Origin: Cellulomonas fimi ATCC 484
GTDB lineage: Bacteria > Actinomycetota > Actinomycetes > Actinomycetales > Cellulomonadaceae
DNA length: 64,000 bases
Reading direction: 5' to 3'
Assembly: GCF_000212695.1 (NCBI RefSeq)
Contig: NC_015514.1
Span: forward strand, 2,790,001-2,854,000
Below are positions 39,596-44,942 of this stretch, one piece after another. Under the pieces are notes generated by a model, which was not told the origin of the DNA, made no database searches, and saw only the letters and a list, made by a program, of their open reading frames with translations. Positions within the stretch are counted from its first letter, which is position 1, and each line of letters begins with the position of its first letter. The position numbers and the translations under genes are program-made.

Positions 39596-41526
39596 CGGTC
39601 GACGCACCTGCCGGGGACGGGCGAGGCACCGATCCCCGCGTGCCGTGGCGTGTCGACGGGCTGCTCGCCCCGTTCGTCCGAGCGGGGGCGCTCGCGTCGG
39701 CGGACGTCCATGTGGCGCGTCGGCTCGGGGCGATCGCGCACGAGACCGACGAGCGGGTGCACCTCGCGGTCGCGCTCGCGGTGGCGGCCGTGCGGGCCGG
39801 GTCGGTCTGCGTCGAGCTCGCCGACGCTCCGGGTGCGGTCGCCGCGCTGCTCGACGGGGCCGATCCCCCGCGTGCCGCCGACCTGCCCTGGCCCGCGCTC
39901 GACGGTCCCGACGGCTGGGTGGCCGCCGTGCGCCGGAGCCCGCTGGTCGGCGACGGGCTCGACGGTGCCGACGACCGGCCGGTCCGGTGGGTGGACGGCC
40001 GCGTCTACCTCGACCGGTACTGGCGCGACGAGCTGTCGGTCCGCCGCGAGGTCGAGGCACGCCTCGCTCGCGGGGCACCGGCCGCACCCGGGGCCGCGGA
40101 CGACCAGGCCGACATCGACGCGGCGGGCGGCGACGGGCCCGTCGACGGCAGCAACTGCAGCGACGGCGCGATCGACGACGTCGCACGCAGGCTGTTCCCC
40201 GCCGCGACCGACGACCGGCAGCGCGAGGCGCTGCGGACGGCGTCGACGTCGTTGCTGACGGTCCTGACGGGCGGCCCCGGCACGGGCAAGACCACGACGG
40301 TCGCGCGGCTCGTCGCCGCGCTGCAGGCGACCGCCGGACCGGGCCTGCGCGTCGCGCTCGCCGCGCCGACCGGAAAGGCCGCCTCCCGGCTCCAGGAGTC
40401 GGTCAACGCCCAGGTCGCGACCCTCGACGAGGATGACCGGGCGCGCGTCGGGACGCTCACGGCGACGACGCTGCACCGGCTGCTGGGGCCACGCCCGGGC
40501 AGCACGACCCGCTTCCGGCACGACCGGGACCGCCGCCTGCCGCACGACGTCGTCGTGGTCGACGAGTCCTCCATGGTGTCGTTGCCGCTCATGGCCCGGC
40601 TGGTGGAGGCGCTCCGGCCGGACGCCCGGCTCGTTCTCGTCGGTGACCCCGACCAGCTCGCCAGCGTCGAGGCGGGTGCCGTGCTGGGCGACCTCGTGGC
40701 GTCCCTGCACGGGCGCGCGGTGGTGCGGCTCACCCAGACCCACCGGTTCGGCGACGACCTTGCCGCACTCGCGGCGGCGGTCCGCGCGGGCGACGCCGAC
40801 GCCACGCTGGCCCTCCTGAGGACGGGCGGTGCGCACGTCCGTCTCACGGCCACGGAGGTCGACGCGCCGGCGCCGGACGACCTGGTCGGCCTGCGCCACG
40901 ACGTCGTCACCGCCGGTCGGGCGCTGGTCGCGGCCGCTCGTGCCGGCGACGCGGCCGCCGCGCTCGCGGCGCTCGGGCAGCACCGGCTGCTGCTCGCCCA
41001 CCGGGAGGGCCCGGCCGGCGTGGCCCGCTGGGCGGCCCAGGCGGAGGCGTGGGTCGAGGCCGCCACGGACGCGCGCGACTCCCGGGAGCCGTGGCCGTTG
41101 GGGCTGCCTCTGCTCGTCACGGAGAACGACCCGTCGAGCGGGTTGTCCAACGGCGACACCGGGGTCGTGGTCCGGGACCTGGTCGGCACCGGGACCCGTG
41201 GGCCGGCGGCGCACGGACCGGCACCGGGCGATGCCGTCGTCGTGGCGTTCGGCGATCCCGATCGTCCGCACCTGGTGCGGCCGCACCGGCTCCCCGCCGT
41301 GCAGCCGGTGCACGCGATGACGGTGCACCGGGGGCAGGGCAGCCAGTTCACGCGCGTGACCGTCCTGCTGCCGCCCGCGACGTCGCCGCTGCTGACCCGC
41401 GAGCTGCTCTACACCGCCGTGACGCGCGCCCGCGAGTCCGTGCACGTGATCGGCTCGCCCGACGCCGTGCGGGCAGCCGTCGAGCGACCCGTCCGACGTG
41501 CGAGCGGCCTACGGCACCCGCTGTGA
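39592..41526 (+). CDS. recD: exodeoxyribonuclease V alpha subunit (5'-3' helicase)
   Basis: 644 residues. SF1B helicase: Walker A TVLTGGPGTGKTTT near residue 225, ALAAPTGKAASRLQE for motif Ia, VVVDESSMVSLPLMARL for motif II, LVGDPDQLASVEAG for motif III, THRFGDDL, and at the end AMTVHRGQGSQF and LLYTAVTRAR for motifs V and VI. An acidic, Gly-rich insertion sits near residues 165-190. GTG overlaps the recB stop; the 3' end converges with and overlaps the acetyltransferase gene by 18 bases. Confidence 0.95.
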   Translation: MTVDAPAGDGRGTDPRVPWRVDGLLAPFVRAGALASADVHVARRLGAIAHETDERVHLAVALAVAAVRAGSVCVELADAPGAVAALLDGADPPRAADLPWPALDGPDGWVAAVRRSPLVGDGLDGADDRPVRWVDGRVYLDRYWRDELSVRREVEARLARGAPAAPGAADDQADIDAAGGDGPVDGSNCSDGAIDDVARRLFPAATDDRQREALRTASTSLLTVLTGGPGTGKTTTVARLVAALQATAGPGLRVALAAPTGKAASRLQESVNAQVATLDEDDRARVGTLTATTLHRLLGPRPGSTTRFRHDRDRRLPHDVVVVDESSMVSLPLMARLVEALRPDARLVLVGDPDQLASVEAGAVLGDLVASLHGRAVVRLTQTHRFGDDLAALAAAVRAGDADATLALLRTGGAHVRLTATEVDAPAPDDLVGLRHDVVTAGRALVAAARAGDAAAALAALGQHRLLLAHREGPAGVARWAAQAEAWVEAATDARDSREPWPLGLPLLVTENDPSSGLSNGDTGVVVRDLVGTGTRGPAAHGPAPGDAVVVAFGDPDRPHLVRPHRLPAVQPVHAMTVHRGQGSQFTRVTVLLPPATSPLLTRELLYTAVTRARESVHVIGSPDAVRAAVERPVRRASGLRHPL

Positions 41527-42006
41527 GGCGACGAGGTCCAGCCGGAAGTAGGCGCTGTGCGGGTCCGGCGCGTAGTCCGCGAACGGGCCGCAGGGCACGA
41601 ACCCCGCGCGCACGTAGAGGCGGCGGGCCGCGGCGAAGTAGTCCTGCGTCCCCGTCTCCAGGTGCAGCGTCCGGTACCCGCGGGAGGCCGACTCGGCGAC
41701 CGCCCGCGCGAGCAGCGTCGCGCCCACGCCGCGCCCCCGGGCCGGGACGGTGGTGCGCATGGACTTGAGCTCGCCGTCGGCCGGGGAGAGCTCCTTCACG
41801 GCGACGCACCCCAGGAGTGCCCCGCGCGCGTCGCGGGCGGTCCAGAACGTCACGGCAGGGTCGGTGAGGGAGGCGGGGTCGAGGGCGTGCACGGACTCGG
41901 GCGGCGACGTCGCGTACATGTCCGCGAGGTGCTCCTCGAGCAGCGCCCGCACGTCCGGGCGCAGCGGGTCGTCGGCGTCGACGACGACGGTCGTGGTGGT
42001 CGGCAC
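41509..42006 (-). CDS. GNAT-family N-acetyltransferase
   Basis: 165 residues. Acetyl-CoA binding motif A is seen as MRTTVPARGRGVGATLLARA, motif B as YFAAARRLYVRAGFV, with VAVKELSPADGELK before it. The pattern ELKSM plus GYRTLHLETG is similar to small GNAT enzymes annotated as PhnO- or YsnE-like. The acceptor is unknown. GTG at 42006 has AGGAGG about 10 bases upstream. Converges with recD. Confidence 0.88.
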   Translation of the reverse strand: MPTTTTVVVDADDPLRPDVRALLEEHLADMYATSPPESVHALDPASLTDPAVTFWTARDARGALLGCVAVKELSPADGELKSMRTTVPARGRGVGATLLARAVAESASRGYRTLHLETGTQDYFAAARRLYVRAGFVPCGPFADYAPDPHSAYFRLDLVASQRVP

Positions 42007-42168
42007 GGCGGCAGCTCCTCCTGGTCGGGTGTCGCACCACCCGCCGGCAGAGCCCGTCGACCCGCATCGGGGTGGCAGGGCGATCCTGGCGCGCCGATGT
42101 GTCGGCGGTGTTGCGCGCGCGGCGCGACGGTGAGCCCCTGACGCGGAGCGCGCGGCCGGCCGGCACGA

Positions 42169-42425: not shown

Positions 42426-43874
42426 TCAGGCCGTGCGGACCGGCTCCCGCTGTGCGGGCACGTCCCGCGACACCGCGTCCTGCTCGGCCCCGACGGCGGT
42501 CGTGTCGTCGGCCGCGGGCTCGTCGTCGGTGAACAGGTTCTCGGCGGACGCCGAGGCGTACCGGTCGAGGTCGAGGATGCCCTCGCGCTTGGCGACGACG
42601 GTCGGCACGAGCGCCTGGCCGGCGACGTTCACCGCGGTGCGGCCCATGTCGAGGATCGGGTCGATCGCGAGGAGCAGCCCGACGCCGGCGAGCGGCAGCC
42701 CGAGCGTCGACAGCGTGAGGGTCAGCATGACGACGGCACCGGTGAGGCCCGCGGTCGCGGCGGACCCGACGACGGACACGAACGCGATGAGCAGGTAGTC
42801 GGTGACGGACAGGTCGACGCCGAACAGCTGGGCGACGAAGATCGCGGAGATCGCCGGGTAGATCGAGGCGCAGCCGTCCATCTTGGTGGTCGCGGCGAGC
42901 GGCACGGCGAACGACGCGTACGAGCGCGGCACCCCGAGGTTCCGCTCGACGACCCGCTCGGTCACGGGCAGGGTGCCGACGGACGAGCGGGACACGAACG
43001 CGAGCTGGATCGCGGGCCAGGCGCCGCGGAAGAAGCTCGCGACCCCGAGGCCGTTGGTGCGCAGCACGATCGGGTAGACGACGAGCAGCACGACGGCCAG
43101 GCCGGTGTAGATCGCGACCGCGTACGTGCCGAGCGGAGCGAGCAGGTCCCAGCCGTAGGTCGCGACGGCCTTGCCGATGAGGCCGAGGGTGCCGAGCGGC
43201 GCGAGCCGGATGATCCACCACAGGACCTTCTGGACGACGGCGAGCGCGGACCGGTTGAAGGCGAGGAAGGGCTCGGCGGCTTTGCCGGTGCGCAGCGCGG
43301 CGATGCCGATGACGAGCGCGACGACGACGATCTGCAGGACGTTGAAGGAGATCGAGGTGGTCGCGGTGAACGAGCCGTCGTCGCCGGGCGTGACCTGCGT
43401 GCCGGCACCGAGGCCCAGCACGTTGCCGGGGATCAGACCGTTGAGGAAGTCGAGCCAGGAGCCGGTGGAGCTCGGCTCGCTGCCCCCCGCGGGGTCGAGC
43501 GTGGAGCGCGACCCCGGCTGGAAGACGAGGCCCAGGCCGATGCCGACGGCGACGGAGATCGCGGCGGTGATCGCGAACCACAGGAGCGTCTGGCCGGCGA
43601 GGCGTGCGGCGTTGGTGACCTGCCGCAGGTTCGCGATGGAGGTGACGATCGCGAGGAACACGAGCGGCGGGACGATTGCCTTGAGCAGGGTGACGAACGA
43701 CGAGCCGATGGTGTCGAGCGTGGTGGTCAGCCAGTTCGGGGTGCCGTCGGCGGTGGGGCCCATCTGGAGGGCGACCCAGCCGAGGAGCACGCCGAGGGCG
43801 AGCCCCAGCAGGACCTGGACGGTGAACGAGGGGAAGCGCAGCCGGCGCTTCGGCTGCACGGCGGTGTCGGGCAC
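42426..43874 (-). CDS. dicarboxylate/amino acid:cation symporter, TcyP-like (probable cystine uptake)
   Basis: 482 residues, DAACS family with eight membrane helices and two re-entrant loops. The substrate-loop phrases AFVSRSSVGTLPV, KMDGCASIYPAI and DPILDMGRTAVNVAG look closer to the Bacillus cystine transporter TcyP (as I recall it: TSRSSAG, NGCAGIYPA) than to GltP, which has serine-rich SSSAATLP and NMDG. I use the GTG at 43874 with AAAGG 8 bases upstream; an in-frame GTG at 43907 has no ribosome site. A cysteine-type leader peptide gene lies 148 bases upstream on the same strand, which supports sulfur-amino-acid control. Family certain, cystine substrate inferred. Confidence 0.85.
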   Translation of the reverse strand: MPDTAVQPKRRLRFPSFTVQVLLGLALGVLLGWVALQMGPTADGTPNWLTTTLDTIGSSFVTLLKAIVPPLVFLAIVTSIANLRQVTNAARLAGQTLLWFAITAAISVAVGIGLGLVFQPGSRSTLDPAGGSEPSSTGSWLDFLNGLIPGNVLGLGAGTQVTPGDDGSFTATTSISFNVLQIVVVALVIGIAALRTGKAAEPFLAFNRSALAVVQKVLWWIIRLAPLGTLGLIGKAVATYGWDLLAPLGTYAVAIYTGLAVVLLVVYPIVLRTNGLGVASFFRGAWPAIQLAFVSRSSVGTLPVTERVVERNLGVPRSYASFAVPLAATTKMDGCASIYPAISAIFVAQLFGVDLSVTDYLLIAFVSVVGSAATAGLTGAVVMLTLTLSTLGLPLAGVGLLLAIDPILDMGRTAVNVAGQALVPTVVAKREGILDLDRYASASAENLFTDDEPAADDTTAVGAEQDAVSRDVPAQREPVRTA

Positions 43875-44021
43875 GACGAGGCCTTTCGGAGGCGTGCGCA
43901 GGGGCACGTCACGACGAGGTCGGAGGGCGTCGGAACGACGCGGGTGCCGGCCGGGACGGCGCGGACGGGTGCGGGCGGCGCGGGACCGACCGGGTGCGGG
44001 GGCGGGCGTCGAGCCCGCGGG

Positions 44022-44105
44022 TCAGCGACCGGACGGGAGCCGACAGAGCGCGCTGGAGACCCGGTGCAGGTCGACGGCGCGGCGCTCGGTCAGGCACGTG
44101 CTCAC
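44022..44105 (-). CDS. short leader peptide of the cysteine-linked actinobacterial type, upstream of the symporter
   Basis: 27 codons from a GTG at 44105; an in-frame ATG at 44153 would give 43. The translation contains LTERRAVDLHRVSSALCR. This fits the R-R-x-V-D-L-x-R-x-x-S-A-x-C-R pattern of peptides that annotators call putative leader peptide upstream of sulfur metabolism genes in Actinobacteria. It ends 148 bases ahead of the symporter on the same strand, and the spacer is rich in inverted GC blocks that could form alternative hairpins. A weak GGGAG lies 9 bases before the GTG. The rest of the 471-bp gap (43875-44345) holds no other gene that I can support. Confidence 0.65.
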   Translation of the reverse strand: MSTCLTERRAVDLHRVSSALCRLPSGR

Positions 44106-44263
44106 AGGTGCGGGCTCCCGGGTCTCGGTGCGGCGGCCGTGGTCGGCGGCCATGGGTCGTAACGATGCGACCCGGGCGATTCTTCCGGCCGGGGCCCGGA
44201 TCCGCACGATGAGTCGGACGTCACAGGCAAGCGCATCCCACCCGGAGCACGTCGGCTCTCCCG

Positions 44264-44291
44264 CGTCGCCGCCTCCGGCACGGCGGCGACG
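44264..44291 (-). terminator. hairpin after the second GNAT gene
   Basis: Perfect 10-bp stem CGTCGCCGCC/GGCGGCGACG with an eight-base loop, 55 bases past the acetyltransferase stop and upstream of the leader peptide. Confidence 0.6.
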
Positions 44292-44345
44292 AGGAGGACG
44301 AGCGGGTGGACCGCGTCGTGCCCGGTCGCCCGGCCGCCCGGTCGG

Positions 44346-44942
44346 TCAGAGGTCGAGGCGGACCACCGCCCGGCGACCGGACCGGCGCACCTCGCGCATC
44401 CCCGCGGCCACGAACATGGCGACGGTCCCGGGATGCAGCTCGACCGGCAGCGCGGCGGTCGTCGTCATCGGGTACGCCTCGACGGCCCGCGCCCCCGCAC
44501 GCCGGGCGACGTCGACCGCGGCCGCGGCGAGGGCCGTCGCCACGCCCTCGCGCCCGTACCCGGCCCGCGTGACGAAGCACGTCACCGCCCACACGCCGGG
44601 ATCCTGGCGGTCCTCGTCGCGCCCCTCCCACGGCACGCGGGTACGCAGCAGCAGCCGGTCGTGGTCCCGTCGGGGCGCGACGGCGCACCAGCCGACGGGG
44701 TCGTCGTGCAGGTACCCGACGAGGCCGACGGCCGTGGCCGGCCCGCTGACGTCCGCGACCTGCGCGCGCAGCCGCGCCTCGAGCGCCTCGGCGCCGACCC
44801 CGGCCCACGTCTCCCGCGGTGCCATCCGGTACCGCTGGCACCAGCACCGCGCACCGTCGGCGCGCGACGCCAGCACGGTGCGCACGTCCTCCCAGCGGTC
44901 GGCGTCGGCCACGGCGACGCGCCACCCCACGGGTCCGGTCAT
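44346..44942 (-). CDS. GNAT-family N-acetyltransferase with Cys/Trp-rich N-terminus
   Basis: 198 residues. The N-terminal half has DGARCWCQRYRM, a Cys-Trp-Cys-Gln motif common in a subgroup of uncharacterised GNAT proteins. The acetyl-CoA loop is CFVTRAGYGREGVATALAAAA and the closing strand carries GARAVEAYPM. ATG at 44942 lies 7 bases after a TAGGGT box without ribosome site, so leaderless. Substrate unknown. Confidence 0.85.
   Translation of the reverse strand: MTGPVGWRVAVADADRWEDVRTVLASRADGARCWCQRYRMAPRETWAGVGAEALEARLRAQVADVSGPATAVGLVGYLHDDPVGWCAVAPRRDHDRLLLRTRVPWEGRDEDRQDPGVWAVTCFVTRAGYGREGVATALAAAAVDVARRAGARAVEAYPMTTTAALPVELHPGTVAMFVAAGMREVRRSGRRAVVRLDL

Follow-up and report, generated by a model that had tools for sequence, protein, structure and literature searches.

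A conserved leader peptide with a fixed TGT codon ahead of a TcyP-like symporter in Cellulomonas fimi, and its predicted role in cysteine-responsive cyst(e)ine import

A short open reading frame (ORF) of Cellulomonas fimi ATCC 484 lies just upstream of a symporter gene whose family carries the source name 'dicarboxylate/amino acid:cation symporter', and the question raised by this locus is whether the two together form a cyst(e)ine importer under the control of a cysteine-responsive leader peptide. This reading had been proposed in an earlier note on the same DNA, and we followed it up in the window, i.e. the whole stretch of 64,000 nucleotides that was analysed (G+C content 75%), in the host genome, and in related genomes. 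The results suggest that a cysteine-responsive leader peptide ahead of a cyst(e)ine importer is probably the right description of the locus. The overall reading of the earlier note, a cysteine-responsive cystine importer with a leader, is a supported prediction, through which a generic symporter family gains a specific and testable role, namely cyst(e)ine import under cysteine control.

The leader peptide and its family

The 27-codon ORF claimed in the earlier note is present on the minus strand at 44105..44022, while its distance from the symporter, given there as 148 bases, comes to 147 nt when the symporter start is placed at GTG 43874 (the mechanical ORF list has GTG 43907). A Shine-Dalgarno-like GAAAGG lies seven nucleotides upstream of GTG 43874, which is the most likely symporter start. 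The features of this part of the locus are as follows.

44105..44022, minus strand: leader peptide ORF MSTCLTERRAVDLHRVSSALCRLPSGR*, GTG start, 27 codons plus TGA
44115..44119, minus strand: Shine-Dalgarno-like GGGAG of the leader, from the sequence
44043..44045, minus strand: predicted regulatory Cys codon TGT (codon 21), nine codons past Asp12, where TGT is position-specific in leaders
43882..43887, minus strand: Shine-Dalgarno-like GAAAGG of the symporter, an identical or related AAGG-type site being present in most of 27 copies
42426..43874, minus strand: TcyP-like SDF-family symporter (PF00375, 330.5 bits; signatures; tree), with a probable start at GTG 43874

Residues 5-22 of the leader are LTERRAVDLHRVSSALCR, and the peptide has one Cys at codon 21 and another at codon 4. 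At window positions 44094-44096 (minus strand) there is a Cys where 71 of 128 symporter-linked leaders carry Trp (STCLTERR versus STWNLTERR), and it looks as if TGGAAC had turned into TGC. The symporter unit is flanked on the same strand by genes for GNAT acetyltransferases (PF00583), at window positions 44346-44942 and 41509-42144 (both minus strand).

The leader scored 30.0 bits against the NCBIfam model NF042934 ('putative leader peptide', cis_reg_atten; curated cut-off 27), which bears out the assignment of the earlier note to the putative leader peptides of sulfur operons, and 33.4 bits against NF042933 (Ms5788A), below the cut-off of 45 for that model. When the host genome (4.27 Mb, a single contig) was searched with NF042934, six matches were obtained at E<=10 (150 of 184 first-look candidates were scored), and the only one found above the cut-off was the same leader, with 28.2 bits, adjoining the symporter gene, which is the only PF00375 match found in that genome. 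Matches to NF042934 at E<=1e-4 were found in 125 of 196 sampled genomes of the class (122 above the cut-off).

From the top-scoring NF042934 matches listed, we chose 107 leaders, none of which has the symporter in its locus, and the best-scoring downstream ORF was taken as the downstream gene of each. The Pfam families of these 107 ORFs (25 of 29 families listed) included rhodanese (43), sulfite/nitrite reductase (14), PALP and cysteine dioxygenase (10 each), luciferase-like monooxygenase and PAPS reductase (5 each), SBP family 5 (four), pyruvate:ferredoxin oxidoreductase (3), and sulfatase (2), along with several families of binding proteins and others seen once, TauD and APS kinase among them; ROK (two) and UvrD helicase (one) are not sulfur enzymes, and the remaining ORFs have no listed family, some of them possibly being wrong frames. 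Leaders of the NF042934 family thus mainly precede sulfur genes. The leader studied here is on the same strand as the symporter, just upstream of it and conserved with it, and the symporter is presumably a sulfur gene as well.

Conservation of the leader with the symporter

The search profile was built from 96 different leaders, none of them from symporter loci, to avoid circularity, and was used to scan 600 nt upstream of 133 orthologous symporters, which came from 80 named genomes and from the 53 class genomes, among 196, with an ortholog at E<=1e-60. A same-strand leader match at E<0.1 was found in 90 of the 133 upstream regions (44 of 80 in the named genomes and 46 of 53 in the class genomes) in comparison to 0 of 133 on the opposite strand. 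The named and class sets overlap slightly, the 133 rows representing 130 different upstream regions, and 87 of the 90 leader-bearing regions differ in their letters. The comparison of orthologs that the earlier note had proposed as a check, with a non-conserved short ORF as the refuting outcome, has therefore found the ORF conserved. Among further orthologs fetched for the G102 family, the leader was present in 16 of 36 at E<0.1 and in 19 at E<0.5. In the host genus, it lies before 17 of 20 other symporter orthologs, the remaining three being without it. Among 27 leader copies (that of the window, 24 of its genus, and two of neighbouring genera), changes fell mostly on third codon positions, the mean minor-allele fraction being 0.031, 0.058, and 0.142 for codon positions 1, 2, and 3, respectively. 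We conclude that a known leader family has here a new member, which is well conserved and associated with a TcyP-like importer.

In the profile scan of upstream regions, no leader was found at 16 alphaproteobacterial orthologs, at four Arthrobacter loci and one Glutamicibacter locus, or at five Corynebacterium-type loci (L295-L299). Since the symporter is present without the leader in three genus copies and in all 16 alphaproteobacteria, the transporter works without it. Upstream of two of six loci (L295 and L296, both Corynebacterium-type and leaderless) the sequence TAGAC-N6-GTCTA was seen, which we take to be the McbR operator, so that sulfur control may have been kept there by other means. 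Within the host genus, 40 genomes were searched at E<=1e-100, with the symporter found in 21 and sulfite reductase in 29; of the 11 in which sir had no match, 7 encode the symporter.

A fixed TGT codon

Cys codons were counted by their offset from the Asp of VDL, with HMM matches of E>0.5 left out. The codon at offset 9 was TGT in 124 of 128 symporter-linked leaders and in 106 of 106 leaders of other genes, i.e. the 107 described above minus one that deviates from the motif pattern. There are 109 different nucleotide cores among the 128 leaders and 92 among the 106, and TGT was found in 105 of the 109. Within the symporter genes of all fetched loci, with leader or not, the Cys codons were 197 TGC and 18 TGT. 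In the leaders of other genes, Cys codons ahead of offset 9 were 50 TGC to 3 TGT at offset 2 and 37 to 9 at offset 7, and those at offsets 10 and 11 combined were about even (15 TGC, 15 TGT), while offset 2 of the symporter leaders had 26 TGC and 11 TGT. T-ending codons were not preferred nearby in the symporter leaders, as shown by Ser at offset 6 (AGC 89, AGT 12) and by the Asp itself (GAC 103, GAT 25). Because the leader profile scores protein only, the codon choice was not selected by the search. The four leaders that deviate at offset 9 still carry the peptide core, and three of them have a stop codon at exactly the same place (TGA in L035 and L039 from Blastococcus, TAG in L077 from Kineococcus), the fourth having Trp (TGG in L045 from Geodermatophilus). 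Poly-Cys leaders of the form LTKRRAVDLCRVAG(C)n in class genomes, which we take to be the mycobacterial ones, have TGT at the same position.

Another Cys-rich leader, MIAWSSSRCRCSCAVADLRMCCCCPRTD*, for which NCBIfam gave no match, precedes the sir-cysH-cysD cluster in locus L264 (G000:C1:2343500-2349500), where about 105 nt separate it from the sulfite reductase gene at 1776. Of the 29 genus genomes with sir, the host included, 26 have a Cys-rich ORF on the same strand whose end lies 101-128 nt ahead of sir; it is missing in three divergent copies, and comparable opposite-strand ORFs were found in 0 of 29. These sir leaders are without VDLxR, and in all 26 the final Cys codon is TGT, albeit in close relatives whose surrounding bases are conserved.

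We read the fixed TGT as the probable result of a decoding constraint on a single site, whose distance is kept constant by the peptide. This codon rule is what is new here, and the rule and the SigR-type promoter described below are the surprises of the analysis; no earlier statement of the rule was found in the literature listings and excerpts searched, and it may be in print. The rule names the exact predicted ribosome pause codon in a widespread leader family, so that a mechanism that was unclear can be addressed by changing one codon synonymously. A frameshift at CUC UGU C was also considered and dropped, as the codon preceding UGU varies.

The same conservation may be viewed differently if the leader is a TnaC-like nascent-peptide arrest element which senses free cysteine or another small molecule, UGU marking the site of arrest and not acting as the sensor. 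Such an element would account for the strong conservation of R(-4), V/I(-1), D0, L1, R3, and S(6) at a fixed distance from codon 9, which exceeds what codon counting needs, and for the stop codon exactly at position 9 in three of the four exceptions; a purely peptide-based sensor, however, leaves the fixed wobble base of one Cys codon unexplained, and the sir leaders keep TGT in all 26 copies without VDLxR, close relatives though they are. We consider an arrest element of this kind unlikely, and decoding of UGU remains the preferred reading.

The substrate of the symporter

The earlier note had based the cystine assignment in part on TcyP-like substrate loops. By overall similarity TcyP is not singled out, because against E. 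coli TcyP, GltP, DctA, and SstT the symporter scored 145, 171, 146, and 63 bits, with identities of 31, 31, 27, and 25%, respectively, so that GltP outscores TcyP at equal identity. The symporter is closest to Cellulomonas proteins, and the nearest NCBIfam models are DctA and GltP, with all scores far under their cut-offs. In the loops themselves, a one-residue insertion in TM7, GC(A/S)xxYPA, is common to the symporter and TcyP and absent in GltP, DctA, SstT, and 14 of 14 paralogs, its value as a TcyP mark being judged from E. coli TcyP alone, and DMGRT in TM8 is common to TcyP and 14 of the 16 clade members shown. The (S/T)RSS of HP1 is found in the symporter and TcyP, but is weak evidence because it also occurs in SstT and in one of the 14 paralogs (L312). 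In the tree, one branch with a support of 100/100 united the 16 members sampled, which range from Cellulomonas to Corynebacterium and Agrobacterium, and TcyP fell outside it, joining SstT on long branches which the program flagged as unsafe. A position of the symporter inside the clade of E. coli TcyP was thus unsupported by the tree, in which it falls in a clade of its own. The substrate site is TcyP-like in part, above all in the TM7 insertion.

Orthologs of three Corynebacterium species (C. suranareeae, C. pacaense, and C. aquilae) share 59-61% identity with the symporter and have the TM7 and TM8 features. C. glutamicum by name was absent among the best 120 matches listed in either search with a Corynebacterium query, and the orthology of NCgl2463 is therefore deduced through C. 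suranareeae P0243 (59%). NCgl2463 and cg2810 are taken here to be one gene. In an excerpt of one paper NCgl2463 is described as an importer of L-cystine or L-cysteine (PMC10821248), and in an excerpt of another, on sulfur regulons, cg2810 is a target of McbR/CysR with a proposed cyst(e)ine role (PMC2580772).

A sulfur-regulated leader might also precede a symporter that serves mainly glutamate, aspartate, or dicarboxylates (or methionine or another sulfur compound), which appears improbable to us. Overall similarity, which is highest with GltP and with PDB aspartate transporters, points in that direction, as do the Asp, Arg, Thr, and Asn kept in TM8, which we take to be the GltPh substrate ligands. 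The TM7 insertion and the TM8 DMGRT shared with TcyP argue against it, the insertion being absent in all the other transporters and paralogs compared, and so do the Corynebacterium members that have both features and the description of the C. glutamicum gene cited above. Cyst(e)ine thus remains the more probable substrate.

Spacer, folding, and termination

The stretch between the leader and the symporter is as follows.

43875..44021, minus strand: C-rich spacer of 147 nt, with 77 C and 42 G, in which no intrinsic terminator was found

No intrinsic terminator or sigma-70 promoter was found in 43800-44360 (0 terminator-like sites), and Rfam gave no match in the window at gathering scores. The mutually exclusive hairpins for which the earlier note had suggested folding the spacer did not emerge, as no structure was common to six groups of relatives (the group labels being partly our own). 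The RNAalifold consensus folds of these groups, compared with column shuffles, gave z values of -4.39 (Cellulomonas), -2.97, +1.10 (Nocardioides), -1.57, -1.86, and -2.22, so that five of six groups fold better than the shuffles, but the predicted pairs differ from group to group and the low values may be inflated because column shuffling mixes the conserved ORF with the variable spacer. For the transcript of the window itself, nothing unusual in folding was seen (z -0.62). The stretch from the leader to the symporter start had a mean z of -1.47 versus shuffles, with 53% of 127 loci below -1.5, and a hairpin directly after the leader stop was not favoured (mean z -0.43, 127 loci).

These values bear on whether TGT and the conserved nucleotides are explained by an RNA structure instead of decoding, e.g. 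by pairing between GAY of the Asp codon and GUY at the Cys codon. GAY-GUY pairing is possible in most copies, and the five groups and the leader-to-start stretch lean toward structure, whereas the differing pairs, Nocardioides, the window transcript, and the variable bases around TGT do not fit it; moreover, the sir leaders keep TGT though only 1 of the 26 has GAY at the corresponding position, and this pairing was dropped as the cause of TGT. A structural role in place of decoding is thus quite improbable in our view. That the leader is a chance ORF in a GC-rich region with many spurious short ORFs is already refuted by its same-strand conservation (90 versus 0 of 133), in addition to the family match, its uniqueness in the genome, and the codon-position bias, and has a negligible probability.

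The spacers of the leader loci have more C than G in 127 of 127 cases (mean skew 0.29), in comparison to a skew of 0.155 for the first 150 nt of the coding region, and to means of 0.10 for 57 loci and 0.136 for 29 GC-rich ones without a detected leader. A C-rich spacer would suit Rho-type control, but this is suggestive only because coding starts and leaderless loci also lean toward C. For mycobacterial cys leaders, Rho is weakly suggested in an excerpt from Seliverstov and colleagues (PMC1262725), and in an excerpt of a later publication the mycobacterial case is presented as one of translation attenuation (PMC13236596).

A predicted SigR-type promoter

The candidate promoter of the unit was identified by a pattern search of the genome.

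44161..44186, minus strand: predicted SigR/SigH-type promoter GGAAG-N18-GTT (G000:C1:2834161-2834186:-)

The match ends 56 nt upstream of the leader, and GGGAG precedes the leader GTG. Its fifth base is G, and not T as in the consensus of SigR and SigH, which excerpts of two papers give as GGAAT-N18/19-GTT (PMC2375139, PMC10012870); the excerpt of the latter also gives GGAAGA-N17-GTT for the rshA promoter of C. glutamicum and states that sigma-H accepts GGAAN. The host genome has 45 matches to GGAAK-N18/19-GTT in comparison to 10 for the reversed control pattern. It also encodes an RsrA-type anti-sigma factor (TIGR03988, 83.1 bits versus a cut-off of 62.5), and the sigma ORF adjoining rsrA matches TIGR02947 SigH_actino (365.8 versus 251.55 bits) and is preceded by GGAAT-N18-GTT.

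The scan for GGAA-N18-20-GTT covered the 200 nt preceding the leader, or those preceding the gene at loci without a detected leader. The pattern occurs in 53 of the 133 ortholog upstream regions (49 different promoters), while 2.24 were expected from dinucleotide shuffles and 1 was found on the opposite strand. The leader is also present at 46 of the 53 loci. Five Cellulomonas-type loci (L014, L019, L349, L351, and L352) are leaderless and yet have a GGAA-N-GTT promoter 42-91 nt before the aligned symporter start; the promoter letters of L351 are identical to those of L014, and those of L352 to those of L019, these leaderless sets overlapping. The pattern was missing in Nocardiopsis, in Blastococcus, and in all but one of the copies of group g26 (Streptomyces-like, our label), and a GGAA-type promoter was present at only 3 of 30 other sulfur leaders, so that the promoter is a feature of some lineages and not of the leader family. 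The predicted promoter would link cystine import to thiol stress.

Proposed mechanism

Cysteine-responsive control, as we picture it, would begin with the SigR-type promoter giving a transcript whose probable start is some 50 nt upstream of the leader. Translation of the leader would follow, with RRAVDLHR in the exit tunnel as codon 21 (UGU) enters the A site. With scarce Cys-tRNA the ribosome would pause at this codon and the symporter would be expressed, while with ample cysteine it would proceed to the leader stop codon and symporter expression would fall. The pause may act at the level of transcription, e.g. if the halted ribosome shields a Rho-binding stretch of the spacer, which is C-rich, or it may affect how the symporter is translated. 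We put forward only tentatively, as possible rather than probable, a wider proposal in which all actinobacterial leaders of this family would work as a single arrest machine, where RRxVDLxRxxS would place the ribosome and the single codon nine after the Asp would decide, this having to be UGU, which is read slowly, or a stop codon in a few lineages; at the present locus, the disulfide-stress promoter of the SigR type would be added, so that cystine import would need both thiol stress and cysteine shortage.

Comparison with known systems

With the NF042934 family the leader shares the motif LTxRRxVDLxRxxSxxC, the form of a same-strand upstream short ORF, and a score above the cut-off; it differs in having a symporter downstream, while the other leaders examined mostly precede sulfur enzymes and, in some cases, transporter binding proteins. 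The mycobacterial poly-cysteine leaders Ms5788A and Ms4527A are reportedly the subject of Canestrari et al. 2020. Leaders of the LTKRRAVDLCRVAG(C)n form, which we take to be these, have the same core and TGT at the same position, but a run of Cys where the present leader has one Cys in the terminal block, and they are leaderless, whereas a leadered transcript with a Shine-Dalgarno sequence is predicted here. In the attenuator uORFC-8-2 of Rhodobacterales cysS, according to an excerpt of PMC8632094, the Cys codons of the uORF are likewise expected to stall ribosomes at low Cys-tRNA, but UGC dominates and an intrinsic terminator follows, in contrast to the fixed UGU, with no terminator found, in the present case.

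For cg2810/NCgl2463 of C. glutamicum, the likeness lies in the sulfur regulon and in the orthologs of three other Corynebacterium species with the TM7 and TM8 features, and the difference in regulation by McbR and CysR, as given in the excerpt of PMC2580772, with the leader not found at L295-L299. E. coli TcyP (YdjN), a cystine/sulfocysteine symporter, differs from the symporter by an identity of 31%, by GQNG where the symporter has KMDG, and by its place outside the symporter's clade in the tree, and is similar to it in SRSS of HP1, in the inserted residue of GC(A/S)xxYPA in TM7, and in DMGRTA of TM8.
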